In this document: positions 16,593-24,945 of the stretch, piece after piece
How the letters are laid out: each line of letters opens with the position of its first letter
How positions within the stretch are numbered: position 1 is the first letter of the stretch
Assembly: GCA_007133195.1 (NCBI GenBank)
Contig: SLNH01000178.1
Location: 1 to 32,858 of the forward strand
Length of the DNA: 32,858 nt
DNA from: Nannocystineae bacterium
GTDB taxonomy: Bacteria; Myxococcota_A; Polyangia; Haliangiales; Haliangiaceae
Reading direction: 5' to 3'
The notes under the pieces: generated by a model
Told to the model about the DNA's origin: nothing
The model's input: the letters and a program-made list of their open reading frames with translations, nothing else
Database searches by the model: none
Translations under genes and position numbers: made by a program

Positions 16593-17749
16593 GTCATCGC
16601 GACGCGGTGCCCGACGCGGTAATCGTTCTCGAGTCCGGCCGCGTGCTGCCTGGCCGCGCGTTCGGCGCGCGCGACGAGCGGGTGGGGGAGGTGGTGTTCA
16701 ACACCGCGATGGTGGGCTATCAGGAGGTGGTCAGCGATCCCTCTTACGCCGGGCAGATCGTGGTGATGACCGCGCCGCAGATCGGCAACACCGGGGTCAA
16801 CGAAGATGACGACGAGGCCGGGATACCAGCCTGCGCGGGCCTCGTGGTCAAAGAGCTTTCGCCGCTGGCGTCGAATTGGCGCTCGCGGGGCGAGCTCGAC
16901 GCGTACTTGCGCGAGCGGGGCGTCGCCGGCATCGAGGGCGTGGACACCCGCGCGCTCACCCGCGCGATCCGCGAGGGGGGCGCCCAGCGCGGGATCATCG
17001 CGACCGGTCGCGCCGGGGAGGGCGCCGCGGCCGAGCTCGCCGAGCGTGTGCGGAGCTCGCCGGCGATGGAGGGCCGAGATCTCGTCCGGGACGTGACGTG
17101 CGCCGAGCCCTACGGCTGGGACCGCCCCGGGTGGCGGGGCCCCGGGCAGGCAGGTGATCCTTTGCCGGCCGACTTGCACGTGGTCGCCTACGACTTCGGC
17201 ATCAAGCGCAATATTCTCCGCGAGCTCCGCGATGCCGGCTGCCGGGTGACGGTCTTGCCCGCCCACGTGCCCGCGCGCGAGGCGCTCGCCATGGACGCCG
17301 ACGGCTTCTTCCTCTCGAACGGCCCGGGCGATCCCGCAGCCGTGAGCTACGGCGTCGAGGCGGTCAAGGCGCTCATCGATTCGCGCCGGCCGGTCTTCGG
17401 GATCTGCCTCGGCCACCAGATTCTCGCGCTCGCGGCGGGGGCCGAGACGTTCAAGCTGCCGTTCGGTCACCACGGCGCCAACCATCCGGTCCAAGATCTC
17501 ACCACCGGGAAGGTGGAGATCACGTCGCAAAACCACGGCTTTTCCGTGGCCGCGGGCTCGCTGCCGCGCGGGGTGACCTGCACCCACAAAAACCTTTACG
17601 ACGACACGGTCGAGGGCATCCGGTTCGAGGACCGCCCGGTGTTCGGCGTGCAGTACCACCCGGAGGCGAGGCCGGGGCCGCGTGACGCGGGCTATCTTTT
17701 CGGTCGCTTTGTTCGCGCGATGCGCGAGCACAAAAGAGGCATCGGGTGA
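16589..17749 (+). CDS. carA: Carbamoyl-phosphate synthase small subunit
   Basis: A 386-aa glutaminase subunit that supplies ammonia to CarB for carbamoyl phosphate, feeding pyrimidine and arginine synthesis. The N-terminal CPSase domain is followed by a class I glutamine amidotransferase domain with the triad Cys273 (FGICLGHQ), His357 and Glu359 (GVQYHPEA). The interface block HHGANHPV is present. Length is normal. It overlaps pyrC upstream (ATGA) and the next gene downstream (GTGA). carB is not in the window. Confidence 0.97.
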
Positions 17750-18435
17750 TCGGCGGCGGCGAGGAAGATGATCTGGACGAGGCGCCGCACGGGGGGCGCG
17801 CCGTCCTCGCGCGGGTCATCGATGGGCTGATCGAACGTCACGGCCACGGCGACCGCGCCGCCGACGTGGCGCGGGCGCGGCGCGCCTTCGAGGACAGGCG
17901 AGGTCGGGTGACCGAGGACGCCGAGCTGTGGGAGCCGTGGACCCAGGCGTTTTTGGAGTGGTACGTGCTCGAGTATGTGCCTCCCGGGGCGGATGTGCCG
18001 CTCGCGGCTGGAGATCTGGCCTCCGAGCCGGACCCGCGGCGCGCGGCCGCCGTTCGAGCGTGGCTCACCTCCCACCGCAGCCTCGTCGAGATCAAGGCGC
18101 TCCGCGACGGGCGCGCCTGGGTGGTCGACGTGCTGGCCGGCGGCGCGTTCGCGGTGGCGGAACAGCGCCGCATGCACGGCGTATCGGCCGGTGACTTGGC
18201 CGAGGTGAGGCTCATCGGGTTCGAGGGCGACGTCTATTTCGGGCGGACTTTCTGCTACCACCCGGGCGCCGCCAAGGACGCGATCCACCGCCGGGCGGAG
18301 GCCATCTACGCGCAAGGGGGCGATCGCTTGAGCGTGCTCGACGCCTGCGCAGCGGCCCGACTGCGGAGCGAGCACTACCGCCACGTCGATCCCGCTCGGC
18401 TTTACGCGCGCGCGAGGGGGGCTACCGAGTCGTAG
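17746..18435 (+). CDS. Conserved-looking unknown protein coupled to carA
   Basis: A 229-aa cytoplasmic-looking protein starting at GTG 17746, in a GTGA overlap with the carA stop, so it is almost certainly the third gene of the pyrimidine operon. It has no signal peptide or membrane helix. An acidic N-terminus leads into a helical part with an aromatic block (WTQAFLEWYVLEYVP near 65-80), then a mixed beta region (RSLVEIKALRDGRAWVVDVLAGG, about 110-135) and a C-terminal helical part. I do not recognise a family or active-site motif. The strict coupling suggests a role linked to CarA or pyrimidine supply, which is inference only. Confidence 0.8.
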   Translation: MIGGGEEDDLDEAPHGGRAVLARVIDGLIERHGHGDRAADVARARRAFEDRRGRVTEDAELWEPWTQAFLEWYVLEYVPPGADVPLAAGDLASEPDPRRAAAVRAWLTSHRSLVEIKALRDGRAWVVDVLAGGAFAVAEQRRMHGVSAGDLAEVRLIGFEGDVYFGRTFCYHPGAAKDAIHRRAEAIYAQGGDRLSVLDACAAARLRSEHYRHVDPARLYARARGATES

Positions 18436-18536: not shown

Positions 18537-19439
18537 ATGCAGGTGTCGCTGGATCCTCAGCTCGTTCGCGCGTTCGTCACCGTGGCGGAGGTGGGCAGCT
18601 TTACGCGCGCCGCGAGGCTCCTCGCGCTCACCCAGTCGGCGACCAGCCTGCAGGTCCAGCGTCTCGAGGAGCTCCTCGAGGCCGAGCTGCTCGTCCGCAG
18701 CCCGCGCGGCGCGCAGCTCACCGCGGCGGGCGAGGCGTTCATGGTCTACGCAAGGCGCATGCTCGCCCTGCAGGACGAGGCGGTCCGCAGCGTCCGGCAG
18801 GTCCCCGAGACCGACCGCATCCGCGTGGGGATGCCGGATGTCTATGCGATGCGCTATTTGCCGGACGTTTTGTCCCAGTTTGCCCAGCGCCACCCCGATG
18901 TGCATCCCGAGGTTCGCTGCGAGGTGAGCACCCGCCTGTTCGACGCCTTCGACGACGGGGCCCTCGACCTTTGCCTGGGCGTGCGGCACGAGCGGGTCGC
19001 GGCGGGCGCGGTGCTCGGCGAAGACGACATCGCGTGGGTGAGCGGGCCCGGGCTTTCGCTCGGGCCGAAGGATGCGGTCCCGCTCGCCCTGTATCCGGAC
19101 TATTGCATCTTCCGGGCCCGCGGCCTGCGCGCCCTCGCCGACGCCGGTCGTTCTTGGCGCCTCGCGTACACGAGCGAGTCGAGCTCGGCCATCGACATCG
19201 CCGTGACCGAGGGATTCGCGGTGGCCATCAAGTCGCGGCGCACCATCCGCCCCGAATGGCGCGAGCTCGGCGACAAGGAGGGTATGCCGCCGCTTTCGCC
19301 CGTGGAAATCGAGCTCCGCCGGTCCCCGGCCACGGAGTCGCCGGCGCATCGCGCGCTCGCCGATCTGCTCGAGACCCGGGTCCGCGACGACCTCGCCCGG
19401 CCCCCCTCATCGCAAGATCGCCCGTCATCGTCCGATTGA
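18537..19439 (+). CDS. LysR-family transcription regulator
   Basis: A 300-aa protein with the canonical LysR winged helix at residues 1-62 (LVRAFVTVAEVGSFTRAA, SATSLQVQRLEE, PRGAQLTAAGEAF) and a LysR substrate-binding domain from about 90 to 285. The effector is not predictable from sequence. It lies 45 bp upstream of the DddP-like M24 gene in the same direction and is probably cotranscribed with it, so it may respond to that enzyme's substrate or product. The ectoine genes 4 kb away are usually controlled by an AsnC/Lrp-type regulator (DoeX), which is not seen here, so this LysR could also serve them. Confidence 0.93.
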   Translation: MQVSLDPQLVRAFVTVAEVGSFTRAARLLALTQSATSLQVQRLEELLEAELLVRSPRGAQLTAAGEAFMVYARRMLALQDEAVRSVRQVPETDRIRVGMPDVYAMRYLPDVLSQFAQRHPDVHPEVRCEVSTRLFDAFDDGALDLCLGVRHERVAAGAVLGEDDIAWVSGPGLSLGPKDAVPLALYPDYCIFRARGLRALADAGRSWRLAYTSESSSAIDIAVTEGFAVAIKSRRTIRPEWRELGDKEGMPPLSPVEIELRRSPATESPAHRALADLLETRVRDDLARPPSSQDRPSSSD

Positions 19440-19484: not shown

Positions 19485-20765
19485 ATGCCCGAGCGCGACG
19501 ATGTGATTGCTGGACTTCCCCGTGACGAAATTCTGGCCGGAAAGCGCCCCGGCGCGGGCCTCCCCGACACCGAGCCGCCGAGCGTCGATCCCCGCCGGCT
19601 TCGCGCCGAGCGCCTCTCGCGGGTGCGGGCGATGATGGCGGAGCAAGGCTACGCGGCGCTGCTTTTGTTCGATCCCAACAACCAGCGCTACGCCAGCGGC
19701 TCGCGCAACATGTTCGGGTACTTTTTGCGAAACTCCACCCGCTATCTGTACGTGCCCGCCGAGGGGCCGCTCATCCTGTTCGAATACCCGCAGAGCGCAC
19801 ACGTCTCCGAGGTCCTCGAGACCATCGGGGAGGTCCGAAGCTCCAAGGTCGTGTGGTCGTCGGTGCGCGGCGCCGACCGCGACACCGCGCGCCCGTTCGC
19901 CGAGGAGGTCGCCGACCTCGTGAAGGCCCACGCCGGCGGCGAGCGCCGCGTGGGGCTCGATCGCTGCTTTCACAGCCTCGCGCTCGCCCTGGGCGACGCG
20001 GGCCTCGAGGCGCTCGACTGCAACCAGGACATGATCCGAGCCCGGCGCGTGAAGACCGCGGACGAGATCGCGTGCCTCGAGCTCAGCATGGCCGCGTCCG
20101 AAGCGGCGGTGGCCGATCTCGCCGCCGCCATCCGCCCCGGGGTCACCGAACAGGAGCTGTTCGCCACCATGTACGGCCAGGTGATCGCGCGCGGCGGCGA
20201 GATGATCGAGACCAGGCTGTTGTCCTCGGGCCCGCGCACGAATCCGTGGTTCAACGAGGCCAGCGCCCGGCGGGTGCGCCCCGGCGAGCTCGTGGCCGTG
20301 GATACGGATACGATCGGCTGCTTCGGCTACTACTCGGACTTTTCGCGCACGTTTTTCTGCGGCCCCGGGCGGCCGACGGGCGAGCAAAAGACCCTCTACC
20401 GCATGGCCTTTGAGCAGGTCTCCCACAACGCGGCGCTCCTCGGCCCGGGCGTGGGCTTCCGAGAGGTGGCCGAGAAGGCGTGGACCATCCCCGATCGCTA
20501 CGCCGAGCGCCGCTACACCTCGGTGGTGCACGGCTGCGGAATGCACGGCGAGGCGCCCTTCATCCCGCACCTTCGCGACTTCGATCGCTACGGCACAGAG
20601 GGCGTCCTCGAGCCCGGTATGGTGCTTTGCGTCGAGAGCTACATCGGCGAGGTCGGGGGGCGCGAGGGCGTCAAGCTCGAGGACGAGCTCGTGATCACCG
20701 AACGCGGCGCCGAGCGGATTTCGCGGTTTCCGTTCGACGATGCGCTGCTCGACCCGTCGGTTTGA
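19485..20765 (+). CDS. M24-family pita-bread metalloenzyme, DddP-like
   Basis: A 426-aa protein with an N-terminal creatinase-like domain (about 40-190) and a C-terminal M24 catalytic domain. Six metal ligands are visible: Asp273 and Asp275 (VDTDT), Asp285 (YYSDFSR), His349 (VVHGCGMHGE), Glu384 (VLCVESY) and Glu399 (VKLEDE). Ordinary M24 enzymes have five, with two Asp 11 apart. Here the spacing 2/10/64/35/15 equals, from memory, that of the Ruegeria DMSP lyase DddP (Asp295, 297, 307, His371, Glu406, 421). The IETRLLSSGPRTNPWF block and the LEPGMVLCVE / PFD endings also resemble DddP. But the position of the proposed DddP catalytic base (Asp377) is Gly355 here, and two substrate-pocket Trp appear replaced by Tyr. 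So it belongs near DddP, but DMSP lyase activity is doubtful; Xaa-Pro peptidase or another betaine-like substrate is possible. Confidence 0.85.
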   Translation: MPERDDVIAGLPRDEILAGKRPGAGLPDTEPPSVDPRRLRAERLSRVRAMMAEQGYAALLLFDPNNQRYASGSRNMFGYFLRNSTRYLYVPAEGPLILFEYPQSAHVSEVLETIGEVRSSKVVWSSVRGADRDTARPFAEEVADLVKAHAGGERRVGLDRCFHSLALALGDAGLEALDCNQDMIRARRVKTADEIACLELSMAASEAAVADLAAAIRPGVTEQELFATMYGQVIARGGEMIETRLLSSGPRTNPWFNEASARRVRPGELVAVDTDTIGCFGYYSDFSRTFFCGPGRPTGEQKTLYRMAFEQVSHNAALLGPGVGFREVAEKAWTIPDRYAERRYTSVVHGCGMHGEAPFIPHLRDFDRYGTEGVLEPGMVLCVESYIGEVGGREGVKLEDELVITERGAERISRFPFDDALLDPSV

Positions 20766-20806: not shown

Positions 20807-20836
20807 GTGAAACGGCCACCGGTTACGGATTACAGT
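20807..20836 (+). promoter_or_regulatory. Predicted promoter of the ABC-2 exporter operon
   Basis: GTGAAA (20807-20812) and TACAGT (20831-20836) are 18 bp apart. The leader to ATG 20883 would be about 40 nt and would include a small hairpin. Confidence 0.4.
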
Positions 20837-20845
20837 GGAGCGCGG

Positions 20846-20862
20846 GCGGGGCGAGTCCCCGC
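20846..20862 (+). other. Leader hairpin before the ABC ATPase gene
   Basis: GCGGGG (20846-20851) pairs with CCCCGC (20857-20862) across a 5-nt loop, 20 nt before the chosen ATG. It is short, and GC-rich DNA makes such stems by chance, so a function is uncertain. Confidence 0.3.
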
Positions 20863-20882
20863 GAATCCCGCTTACCACGTCC

Positions 20883-21884
20883 ATGACCGCGACCGACCAC
20901 CCCCCGAAACTCGGCCCCCAGCGGGGCGCCGCCCGCCGCGGCGATGCGGCGGCGGACAAGGCGCCCGCCCTGTCCGCGCGCGGCGTAAGCAAGACCTACG
21001 CCTCGGGGCTCGTCGCCCTCGAGGGAATCGACCTAGACATCCAGCGCGGCGAGATCTTCGCTTTGCTCGGCCCCAACGGCGCGGGTAAGACCACCCTCAT
21101 CAACATCGTCTGCGGCCTGGTCAACAAGAGCTCGGGCACGGTGCGGGCGGCAGGGCATGACATCGTGGCCGAGTACCGCGCCGCTCGCTCGCTCATCGGA
21201 CTCGTCCCCCAGGAGCTCACCACGGACGCGTTCGAGACCGTGTTGGCCACGGTGAACTACAGCCGGGGGCTTTTCGGGCTGCCGAAAAACCGCGCTCACA
21301 TCGAGAAGGTGCTGCGCGATCTCGCCCTGTGGGATCGGCGCGGGAGCCGGCTTCGCAGCCTCTCGGGCGGGATGAAGCGGCGTGTCATGATCGCGAAGGC
21401 GCTGTCGCACGAGCCCTCCATCCTGTTTCTCGACGAGCCCACCGCGGGGGTGGACGTGGAGCTCCGCCGGGACATGTGGCAGCTCGTCCGCCGCCTGCGC
21501 GAAAGCGGCGTCACGATCATCCTCACCACCCATTACATCGAGGAGGCGGAGGAGATGGCCGACCGGGTCGGCGTCATAAGCAAGGGACGCCTGGTCGTGG
21601 TCGATGAGAAGACGGAGCTCATGCGAAAGCTCGGGCGCAAACAGCTGAGCGTCCAGCTCGAGACCCCGATCACCGCGATTCCCCGCGTGCTCGAGGGGCA
21701 CGGGCTCGAGCTCGGCGAGGGCGGCCGCAGCGTCCATTACGTCTACGAGGCGGCGCAAGACAGCCACAGCATCGACAGTTTGCTCCGCGACCTCGGCGCC
21801 GCCGGCCTGCGGGTGCGCGACATCGAAACGCGCCAGAGCACGCTCGAGGAGATCTTCGTGAGCCTCGTCAAGGAAGAGACATGA
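20883..21884 (+). CDS. ABC-2-type exporter, ATP-binding subunit
   Basis: The frame is open from GTG 20835, but ATG 20883 is preferred because it lies beyond the predicted promoter; the product is 333 aa. A 28-residue polar extension precedes the ABC domain. Walker A GPNGAGKT (63-70), the LSGGM signature (160-164), Walker B ILFLDEP (180-186) and the H-loop His217 are all intact. The last 90 residues form the regulatory tail common to the YadG/NodI-type (CcmA-like) subfamily. Its stop overlaps the permease start (ATGA), so the pair forms one transporter. Substrates of this subfamily include polysaccharides, lipids and drugs; none can be assigned here. Confidence 0.93.
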
Positions 21885-22642
21885 ACGTCTACGCGATCCG
21901 CGCGATCTACGCGTTCGAGATGGCGCGCGCCTTTCGTTCGTTCGGGCAGAGCCTCATCTCTCCCGTGCTGTCGACGTCGCTTTACTTCGTGGTGTTCGGG
22001 GCGGCGATCGGCGGCCGCATCGACGAGGTCGAGGGGGTGAGCTACGGCGCCTTCATCGTGCCGGGCCTCATCATGATGATGGTCCTCACCCAGAGCGTAT
22101 CCAACGGCTCGTTCGGCATCTACTTCCCCCGCTTCATGGGGACGATTTACGAGCTCTTGTCCGCCCCCGTGTCGTACGTCGAGGCCGTGATCGGTTACGT
22201 CGGCGCGGCGGCCACCAAGTCGATCATCATCGGCGTCATCATCCTCGCCACCGCAGGGCTGTTCGTGCCGCTCGAGATCGCCCACCCGCTTTGGATGGTG
22301 GCGTTCCTCGTCCTCGCGTCGGTCACCTTCAGCTTGCTCGGGTTCATCGTCGGCATCTGGGCAGAGAGTTTCGAGCAGCTCGGCTTTATCCCCACGCTGG
22401 TCGTCATGCCGCTCGCCTTCCTGGGCGGCACGTTTTACTCCGTGGATATGCTCCCCGGCGCGTGGCAGACCGTGGTGCTCTTCAACCCGGTGGTCTACCT
22501 CGTGAGCGGGTTTCGGTGGAGCTTTTACGGCGTGGCCGACGTGAGCCTGGGCGCGAGCCTCGGGGTGATCGGGCTGTTCCTCGCCGTCGCCCTCGCCCTC
22601 GTTTGGTGGATCTTTCGGACCGGGTATCGGCTCAAGGCGTGA
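21881..22642 (+). CDS. ABC-2-type exporter, membrane permease subunit
   Basis: A 253-aa protein with about six predicted transmembrane helices and the ABC-2 membrane fold (YadH/NodJ-like). Helices cluster near 22-42, 58-80, 103-130, 138-160, 165-190 and 222-245. The motifs [16 protein letters not shown] and [14 protein letters not shown] are typical for the family. Its start overlaps the ATPase stop. It converges on doeB, with a 51-bp gap that holds no clear terminator. Confidence 0.93.
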
Positions 22643-22693: not shown

Positions 22694-23707
22694 TTAGGGC
22701 GCGTACTCGTCGGCGATGACGGCGAGGCAGTCGCCGGCCTCGGTCTTCCCCGGAGAGCGCTCGGCGATGACGACCCCGCCGAGGCCCGCCGTCAGGGTCA
22801 CGGGCGCGCGGGTCGAGCTCGTGAGAATGTGAAGCTGGCCGACCTCCTGGCCGCGCTCCACGCTGTCGCCGATGCGGACATAGGGCTCGTAGACCCCCTC
22901 CTCGGGGGCGATCACGTAGGCGTCTGCGTGGGGCACCTCGACGAGGCGCCGCGTGCGCCCGTGTCCCGCCGCCGGGTGGTCGGCGGCGATGAGGCCGAAA
23001 TGGACGAGGAGGTTCCACAGGCCGCGCTCTCCAATCGAAAGCGCGTCGATATCCACCGTCGATCCGCCGGCCAGCTCGGTGGACAAGAACAGCTTGCCGC
23101 TTTGTTCGACGAAGGTGTCGAGCTGCCCGCTGTCGTCGAGCTCGCGGATCACGATGCCGAGCGGCGCGCCGAACGCCTTGAGCGCGTCCAACGTCTTTTC
23201 GTGACGAGCCTTATCCTCGAGGTGATGCATGATCACGCAGGGGGCGAAGTTCAGCGAGTAGCCGCCCGAGTGAAAGTCGACCACCGCGTCGGCCATGGGG
23301 ACGAGCACTCGGCTCACGTAGTGCGCGACCATCTCGGTGTAGCTGCCGCCCGCGCGCCCGGGGAAGCTGCGGTTTAGATCCTTGCCGTCGACCGGGCAGA
23401 TGCGCTGGCAGGCCTGCACCCCGGGCACGTTCATGGCCGGAATGATGATGAGCCTGCCTTTGAGCTCGGAGGGGTCGAGCGCGCGCGTAAGCTTCGCCAG
23501 CGCGATGGGGCCCTCGAACTCGTCGCCGTGCGCGCCGGCGGTGAGAAGCAGGGTGGGCCCCTCGCCGTTTTTCACGACGACGATGGGGACGAGGATCATG
23601 CCCCAGGCCGAGCTGTTTCGCGAGTGCGGCACGCGGAGAGTGCCGCGCTGGAGCCCCTCGCGCTCGAAATCGACGTCTGTGGTGATGCGCGTCTTTTCCT
23701 CAGCCAT
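22694..23707 (-). CDS. doeB: N2-acetyl-L-2,4-diaminobutanoate deacetylase
   Basis: A 337-aa zinc enzyme of the AstE/AspA (M14-like) family. Zinc ligands are seen as His and Glu in GAHGDEFEG (near 58-66) and His in VVDFHSGG (near 143-150). The block CPVDGKDLNRSFPG is also characteristic of DoeB. A C-terminal beta domain (about 250-337) covers the active site in this family. DoeB removes acetate from the product of ectoine ring opening to give diaminobutyrate. It lies 73 bp downstream of doeA in the same direction, which is the usual gene pairing and the main support for this specific name over a generic succinylglutamate-desuccinylase-like call. Confidence 0.87.
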   Translation of the reverse strand: MAEEKTRITTDVDFEREGLQRGTLRVPHSRNSSAWGMILVPIVVVKNGEGPTLLLTAGAHGDEFEGPIALAKLTRALDPSELKGRLIIIPAMNVPGVQACQRICPVDGKDLNRSFPGRAGGSYTEMVAHYVSRVLVPMADAVVDFHSGGYSLNFAPCVIMHHLEDKARHEKTLDALKAFGAPLGIVIRELDDSGQLDTFVEQSGKLFLSTELAGGSTVDIDALSIGERGLWNLLVHFGLIAADHPAAGHGRTRRLVEVPHADAYVIAPEEGVYEPYVRIGDSVERGQEVGQLHILTSSTRAPVTLTAGLGGVVIAERSPGKTEAGDCLAVIADEYAP

Positions 23708-23780
23708 GGTATCGACCCGGTTTCGGTAGGAGGGCGTCCCGCGGCCCGCGCGGCGGTGACGCCGGCGCCCCGCGCCGCGG

Positions 23781-24945
23781 TTACGCCTTCACGGTGAGCT
23801 TTCGCGGAACCTCGCAAAACGACTCGCAGCCGGTTTCGGTGACGTAGACCGTCTCCGAGGTTCCCATGACGTATTTGCCCTCGACGCCGTAGAGCCACGG
23901 GATCAGGTGAAAGGTCATCCCCTCGCGCAGGACGGTGCCCTCGCCGGCTTTGAGGCTTAGCATGTAGCCCTCGTCCCAGCTCGGGGCGAACGCGATCCCG
24001 ATCGCGTAACCGGAGCGGGTGACGAGCTGCCCGCCGCCCGTGTGCCTGGCGAGCACTTCGCGCGCCGCGTTGTCGGCGTCCGACGCGGTGAGGCCAGGGC
24101 GCATGGTCTCGATCATCTTGCCGACGGCCTCGGTGGTGAGCTCCTCCGCTTCGAGGAGCGCCTGTGGCGGGTCGCCGAGGTACACGGTGCGCATCATCGC
24201 GGTGTGGTAGCGGCGGAAGCAGCCGCCGACCTCCAAAAACACGCACTCGTCTTTGCCGATCGTCCGCCCCTCCCAGGTGGCGTGTCCGATGAGGCTGCGC
24301 GGGCCGGAGGTCACGTACGGCAGCACGGCGGGGTACTCGCCGCCGTTTTTGAACATCGCGTGGCAGACCTCCGCGGCCACCTCGTTCTCGGTCATCCCGA
24401 CTTCGGCAGCCTCGATGCCGGCTCGGATGCCGGCTTCCGTCGCCCGCGCGGCCTTCCGCATGGCGTCGATCTCGTACTTCGACTTGGTGATCCGCCCCTC
24501 CTCGACGATGCCGGAGCAGTCGAACAGCTGCGCGTCGAACAGCGTCGCCAGCATGCGCTCCTGCTGATAGGCGGGAAAGAAGTACGAGTTTTTCTCGTAC
24601 CCGATGATGCGGTTGGACAGCCCGTTTTGGTTGAGCGCGTTCCACGCCATTTGAATCGCGTCACCGGTGTCGGTGTAGGGGTAGGTCTTTTCGACCCACG
24701 TACGGGCGTGGACGTTGGAGTCCTCGAGGAGCCGCGTGATCATGAAGGGCTCGCTCTCGAGGGGAACGATGAGGGCCTGAAAATACGAGTACCCCGTGGT
24801 CTGGTAGCCCGTGAGGTAGGCCAGATTTTCGGGATCGGTGACGATGAGCGCGTGCATGCGCCGGTCGCGCATGCGGTGACGGAGCTCTTCAATGCGGCGC
24901 TTGTACTCCTCGATGGGGAACGTGAGTCCTTCGTGATCTCGCATG
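23781..24945 (-). CDS. doeA: Ectoine hydrolase, M24 pita-bread family
   Basis: ATG 24945 gives a 387-aa protein, close to the usual DoeA length (about 390-400). An open frame extends to 25748 but covers the promoter gap and the next gene, so it is rejected. The N-terminal creatinase-like domain contains NLAYLTGYQTTGYSY (40-54). In the catalytic domain the first Asp metal ligand is replaced by Glu238 (CVFLEVGGC) and the second ligand block reads RRYHTAMMRT with no Asp, as in DoeA and creatinase. From memory, DoeA/EutD is metal-free and uses a Glu at this place to bind ectoine covalently, so Glu238 is the candidate nucleophile. The GYAIGIAFAPSWDEG block also fits the family. Its partner doeB follows. 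The pathway's later genes (doeC, doeD) are not in the window. Confidence 0.85.

Follow-up and report, generated by a model that had tools for sequence, protein, structure and literature searches.

The DMSP lyase DddP, reported to account for about 65% of the ddd genes of bacteria in ocean metagenomes (PMC10686828), is an M24-fold enzyme whose homologues are called by similarity, for example at 40% identity or more, including in Halomonas (PMC6309047). It holds two irons with six residues (D295, D297, D307, H371, E406 and E421), of which D297 is not conserved with methionine aminopeptidases, and Asp377 is favoured as the catalytic base, with Tyr366 as an alternative (PMC4108388). A review of the structures describes how two histidines conserved in M24 peptidases are swapped in DddP for Asp and Phe, a change thought to abolish peptidase activity, records no activity of DddP on Val-Pro, and puts forward the six-ligand site as the reason that the enzyme acts on DMSP (PMC5395565). 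The same pita-bread fold is found in the Xaa-Pro dipeptidases and prolidases (M24B; 1pv9 and 3q6d), and in the ectoine hydrolase DoeA/EutD an M24 fold serves osmolyte catabolism through the opening of a ring.

Here we describe a relative of DddP encoded in a 32,858-nucleotide stretch of DNA from a Nannocystineae bacterium (the window), which a first-pass annotation made from the letters alone had called a DddP-like M24 enzyme with altered catalytic residues. It belongs to a subfamily, termed HGE, and we know of no HGE member with a known substrate or activity.

The window M24 protein and its active site

The gene lies at 19485-20765 on the forward strand, where an open reading frame with an ATG start, and with the boundaries given in the first-pass annotation, encodes 426 amino acids; open reading frame, domains, alignment and tree together assign the product to the HGE subfamily of DddP-like M24 metalloenzymes. 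Pfam recognises Creatinase_N and Peptidase_M24 (112 bits) domains, and the top four sequence matches in the PDB are all DddP entries (4s01, 4rzy from Ruegeria lacuscaerulensis, 4s00, and 4b28 from Roseobacter denitrificans); they score 234-244 bits and align over almost the whole chain with about 35% identity, and prolidases are the runners-up at 64 bits. An AlphaFold2 model of medium confidence (pLDDT 72) ranks the same four DddP structures first with Foldseek, and neither by similarity nor by fold rank is the protein among the Xaa-Pro peptidases. It is a pita-bread (M24-fold) enzyme and, like DddP, probably a homodimer. The score against the NCBIfam DddP equivalog NF043017 is 309 bits and thus below the cut-off of 600; the DddP copies above that cut-off score 609-903 bits.

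Residues were mapped through the PDB-match alignment and MAFFT with the Ruegeria lacuscaerulensis enzyme (RlDddP) as reference, and all residue coordinates given here are on the forward strand. The six DddP ligands are all kept, as D273 and D275 in the D273-T-D275 motif (20301-20309; RlDddP D295 and D297), D285 (20337-20339; D307), H349 (20529-20531; H371), E384 (20634-20636; E406) and E399 (20679-20681; E421), and their spacing of 2, 10, 64, 35 and 15 is identical in the two proteins, as the first-pass annotation had held. At the sequence level the site therefore has six ligands and is not a five-ligand M24 site. Tyr366, the alternative base proposed for DddP, is also kept, as Y344 (20514-20516).

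Other residues of the active site differ. The catalytic Asp377 of DddP corresponds to Gly355, an earlier assignment that the alignment confirms; it lies within the clade signature H354-G355-E356 (20544-20552), at a position that is one of the two conserved histidines in M24 peptidases. The position of the other histidine is taken by F256 (20250-20252; RlDddP F278), so that the protein lacks the peptidase histidines as well as the base of DddP. All 81 HGE sequences examined carry Gly355, and the loss of Asp377 is thus not a matter of chance. Trp95 of the DddP pocket is Tyr79, which together with R82 (RlDddP H98) is a clade-fixed substitution (19719-19730); the earlier statement that the pocket Trp residues are Tyr is correct for Trp95 but not for W379, beside Asp377, which is Ala357. 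The substitutions that accompany Gly355 among the relatives include Trp95 to Tyr or Phe, His98 to Arg, Tyr384 to His (His362 in the window protein) and Cys376 to His (in HGE) or Thr (in a second group, TGE), and the pocket of the Gly355 proteins is predicted to have lost an acidic base and a Trp and to have gained positive charge. Among 15 proteins taken as DddP both Asp377 and Trp95 are invariant, whereas both are lost across the HGE clade.

The window protein shares five of its six ligands with the prolidases, but is only about 22% identical to them, has the extra ligand D275 and carries neither of the conserved histidines. With DddP also the best match by sequence, the protein is DddP-like and not an ordinary M24 peptidase, in agreement with the first assignment. 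Identity to the solved DoeA is 18%.

Phylogeny of the DddP-like M24 superfamily

DddP-like proteins were gathered from named genomes, plasmids and whole-genome searches, and those with the DDDHEE ligands, Tyr366, and DddP as the best match among M24 families are treated as a working group, the DddP-like M24 superfamily; the window protein has all three characters. All six ligands are present in 112 of 117 aligned rows (the other five being three DGDHEE proteins and two DoeA2-type outgroups), Tyr366 is nearly universal, and Asp377 and Trp95 are variable. The six ligands and Tyr366 are thus common to nearly the whole superfamily and are not a signature of DMSP lyases. The ligand set that was first taken to fit DddP does match it exactly but is not diagnostic of that activity, and because the six-ligand site extends more widely than DMSP lysis, the published explanation of the switch of DddP to DMSP needs restating. 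Up to five DddP-like paralogues occur in one genome. We note that the DGDHEE form, without the extra ligand D297, is found in DddP-like proteins at loci L208, L211 and L217, and that L217 also holds a DoeB-like gene.

In a tree of 114 rows (LG+G4 model, quick search, with two long-branch DoeA2-type rows as the root) verified DddP is nested deep in an 88-row group (SH-aLRT 99), nearly all members of which have Asp or Asn at position 377. The window protein lies outside this group, in a clade of 11 rows (SH-aLRT 100) marked by the motif HGxG[ML]HGE; this motif, the tunnel motif RNMFGYFLRNS and monophyly define the HGE clade, and the window protein conforms in each respect. Forcing the window clade and the DddP equivalogues into one group lowers the log-likelihood by 176 and is rejected (p-AU 7e-13). 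TGE and NGE, two more groups with Gly355, also fall outside the 88-row group, and the constraint that places all Gly355 proteins in a single clade is not rejected by the AU test (p-AU 0.40).

These two groups, and the Asp377-bearing groups found by Rieske or MttB genes, consist of uncharacterised proteins annotated 'Xaa-Pro peptidase family protein' that share the superfamily and the six ligands with the window protein, and their neighbourhoods often contain betaine and methylamine genes. TGE further shares Gly355, Arg82 and His362 with the window clade. Unlike these groups, the window clade has His354 and the RNMFGYFLRNS motif, which are specific to it, and the partner genes differ.

In Pseudoruegeria a single genome encodes a true DddP (792 bits) alongside one HGE and one TGE copy, which argues that the DddP and HGE proteins have different jobs. 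Residues, score, tree and this coexistence with a true DddP rule out the window protein as a DddP orthologue. The suggestion in the first-pass annotation of an ancestral peptidase on the path to DddP is also a poor fit, because F256 and G355 have already replaced the histidines, the window clade is a separate branch and DddP is nested elsewhere.

Gene neighbourhoods of HGE orthologues

HGE orthologues that are 60-68% identical to the window protein sit in conserved operons of two types. The first (type H) accounts for 43 of 80 orthologue loci, in Halomonadaceae, Rhodovibrionaceae, Rhodosalinus and Rhodovibrio, and here the M24 gene is directly preceded by one for a HalD/WelO5-type 2-oxoglutarate oxygenase with an HxD motif. 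The order is LysR / HalD-type hydroxylase / M24, with LysR beside the hydroxylase in nearly all 43 loci, and in a whole-genome search of eight type-H genomes each of the nine HalD-type genes immediately precedes an HGE M24 gene. Halogenases typically lack the acid of the HxD motif. The motif is present in all ten HalD-type partners examined, which speaks against halogenases and indicates that they are hydroxylases.

In 20 of the 43 type-H loci, all 20 in Halomonadaceae, a (methyl)malonate-semialdehyde dehydrogenase gene lies 300 nt or less downstream of the M24 gene on the same strand, hinting at a three- or four-carbon semialdehyde. An OsmF/ProX-type betaine-binding protein is encoded in the flanks of 24 of the 43, usually beside a carbon-nitrogen hydrolase. 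A more distant relative, in Caballeronia, agrees with this pattern and is found in a run of hydroxylase, M24, OpuAC importer and permease genes.

Type R has the order GbdR-like regulator / M24 / isochorismatase-family amidohydrolase and is seen in rhizobia, Pseudoruegeria and Gluconacetobacter. Four of these loci (Sinorhizobium pSymA, Shinella, Labrys and Rhizobium Root482) are extended by MttB, a DMGDH-like demethylase and a mandelate-racemase-type enzyme, together with an ABC importer of the betaine type, the binding protein of which most closely resembles OsmF/ProX/OpuC/EgtU proteins; in Mesorhizobium some HGE orthologues are near an oligopeptide-type binding protein. The hydroxylase and GbdR/isochorismatase types may act on different substrates.

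Across the superfamily, 12 of 60 loci have MttB at a distance of 5 kb or less, with 1.3 expected at random; the linkage to importers and MttB is a pathway context and not the reaction itself. No conserved operon was found for the TGE group, the neighbourhoods of which are not uniform. Tandem arrays of at least two DddP-like M24 genes near MttB occur in Alphaproteobacteria (loci L180, L190, L171 and L146; genomes G316, G490 and G264). On a Rhizobium anhuiense plasmid (L095, 4445-13953) another more distant relative, an Asp377-bearing DddP-like M24 gene, has as neighbours glycine-betaine-monooxygenase-like Rieske genes, a betaine/proline importer and a 4-hydroxyproline epimerase, a gene set that suggests hydroxyproline-betaine breakdown.

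The window locus and its genome

Directly upstream of the window M24 gene is a LysR-family regulator (LrhA-like; 18537-19439, forward strand), recognised by profile match and identity, which is about 39-45% identical to the LysR proteins of triads elsewhere (41% to that of Modicisalibacter). The hydroxylase is absent from its side. The genome has three HalD-type genes, two of them linked to DddP-like paralogues, each in a LysR / HalD-type hydroxylase / M24 triad, on contigs C206 (L011, L220) and C279 (L010, L221) of the window genome (G000); at the Asp377 position one paralogue has Asn (CNE) and the other Gly (NGE). The third HalD-type gene is unlinked, an orphan on contig C45 (L223; L226, 1909-2802) whose product shares about 50% identity with the partner enzymes of Halomonas, and it may be the partner of the window M24 gene despite lying on another contig. 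MttB was absent in a search of the window genome and is ruled out as a partner there.

Downstream, an ABC pair (20835-22642) is similar to exporters rather than to betaine importers. Beyond it, on the opposite strand and 2-4 kb downstream of the M24 gene, NCBIfam scores identify a second M24 gene at a distance of 3 kb, a DoeA2-type ectoine hydrolase, with a DoeB-like deacetylase (22694-24944, reverse strand). DoeA2 scores 610 bits, above its cut-off of 575, and the DoeB-like protein 347 bits, below its cut-off of 402.7; DoeA2 lacks all six metal ligands and reads EGASIS at those positions. A 229-residue open reading frame at 17746-18435 (forward strand), between carA and the LysR gene, has no Pfam or NCBIfam match. 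No RNA families were found in the window and no promoter-like sites between 18300 and 21100, a region with one terminator-like site (19686-19698), which is no more than chance.

Three DddP-like matches are present in the window genome, and no other genome among the 189 sampled from the phylum has any, so that the M24 genes were probably acquired horizontally. Contamination of the contig, as a reason that relatives lack the M24 gene, is ruled out by carA, which is present as a single copy and is 53-68% identical to the carA of relatives; the contig thus fits the genome with which it was binned.

Linkage to genes for the import or breakdown of quaternary-ammonium compounds is seen for many orthologues and for the Caballeronia relative, but not at the window locus. 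With neither an adjacent hydroxylase nor MttB among its own neighbours, the window copy would be connected with betaines through orthology. The sister activity on another osmolyte that the first-pass annotation had raised is consequently suggested, for a betaine type, by the orthologue neighbourhoods but not by the window locus.

Proposed function

On balance, and with moderate confidence, we favour a role for the window protein in osmolyte catabolism as neither a DMSP lyase nor a peptidase, through metal-dependent cleavage of a C-N (less likely a C-S) bond in a betaine-type osmolyte or its product. The HGE enzyme would hold a DddP-type two-metal site with six ligands, and the carboxylate or carbonyl of the substrate would bind the dinuclear metal. 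Gly355 and Tyr79 would stand where DddP has the Asp377 base and Trp95, with Arg82, His354 and His362 as further clade-specific residues, and catalysis may proceed via a metal-bound hydroxide and Tyr344, rather than by proton abstraction by Asp377. In the halophile relatives the hydroxylase directly upstream and the dehydrogenase often directly downstream suggest a pathway order of hydroxylation, metal-assisted cleavage, and an oxidative step that turns a small semialdehyde into an acyl-CoA. We infer by orthology that such a role would extend to the window's own genome.

A different outcome would follow if the enzyme were a lyase of DMSP (or DMSOP) in which Tyr344 (Tyr366 in DddP) or His354 serves as base instead of Asp377. 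The (methyl)malonate-semialdehyde dehydrogenase that adjoins the M24 gene in 20 Halomonadaceae loci would be in keeping with this, as that type of enzyme ends the acrylate/3-hydroxypropionate branch of DMSP breakdown. The six ligands and Tyr366, once proposed as the alternative base (PMC4108388), are all kept as well. We nevertheless regard a DMSP lyase as improbable, given that the two residues invariant in the 15 DddP proteins are lost in the whole HGE clade, which is phylogenetically separate, that the score is far under the equivalog cut-off, and that a true DddP is found alongside an HGE copy in one genome; moreover, it is not evident what a hydroxylase partner would do in the lysis of DMSP, and no acrylate genes were recognised among the annotated neighbours. 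An Xaa-Pro dipeptidase, or another M24 peptidase with an extra ligand, is most improbable. The Pfam domains and the oligopeptide-type binding protein near some Mesorhizobium orthologues speak for a peptidase, but both M24 histidines are replaced, a loss that in DddP accompanies a lack of Val-Pro cleavage (PMC5395565), the match to prolidases reaches about 64 bits where that to DddP reaches 244, and the orthologue neighbourhoods point to osmolyte catabolism; we reject identity as an Xaa-Pro peptidase on the missing histidines and the similarity.

Hydrolysis of a cyclic or amide-bearing osmolyte, with DoeA-like opening of a ring or amide followed by an amidase, is unlikely. It would account for the recurrent amidohydrolase at the orthologue loci, of the isochorismatase type in rhizobia and the carbon-nitrogen hydrolase type in halophiles, and the DoeA2/DoeB pair lies close to the M24 gene in the window. 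In the halophile loci, however, the amidase is on the other strand beside the importer genes, and since DoeA2 is without the metal ligands the chemistry would have to differ from that of DoeA2, which also counts against this reading.

Returning to cleavage of a betaine-type osmolyte, we advance a more specific version only tentatively. The HGE enzyme, the 2-oxoglutarate hydroxylase and the malonate-semialdehyde dehydrogenase might together constitute an aerobic pathway, as yet undescribed, that breaks down a quaternary-ammonium or sulfonium osmolyte such as beta-alanine betaine or a hydroxylated betaine, in which an Asp-less dinuclear site of the DddP type breaks a C-N or C-S bond.

Implications

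The fold and the metal site of these proteins are known. In open-access papers on DddP-like enzymes that do not act on DMSP, or on the breakdown of beta-alanine betaine, we found nothing describing the HGE clade; the Gly355-bearing subfamily, its fixed substitutions and the set of hydroxylase, M24 and dehydrogenase genes were not found described in the open-access literature. Judged from the sequences compared, the HGE subfamily appears to be a widespread sister family of DddP.

Some HGE members could be mistaken for DMSP lyases in gene surveys. Those compared are 34-43% identical to true DddP and thus straddle the 40% threshold, so that HGE genes could inflate estimates of DMS potential; in two Halomonadaceae genomes searched whole, the HGE gene is the only DddP-like gene (312-314 bits). 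The occurrence of the six-ligand site as a superfamily trait makes the origin of DMSP lysis testable via sister clades, and the orthologue loci point to a way in which halophiles and rhizobia might break down betaine-type osmolytes. If the route through hydroxylase, HGE enzyme and dehydrogenase should prove true, DMSP lysis would be one specialised offshoot of an older superfamily of betaine-cleaving enzymes.
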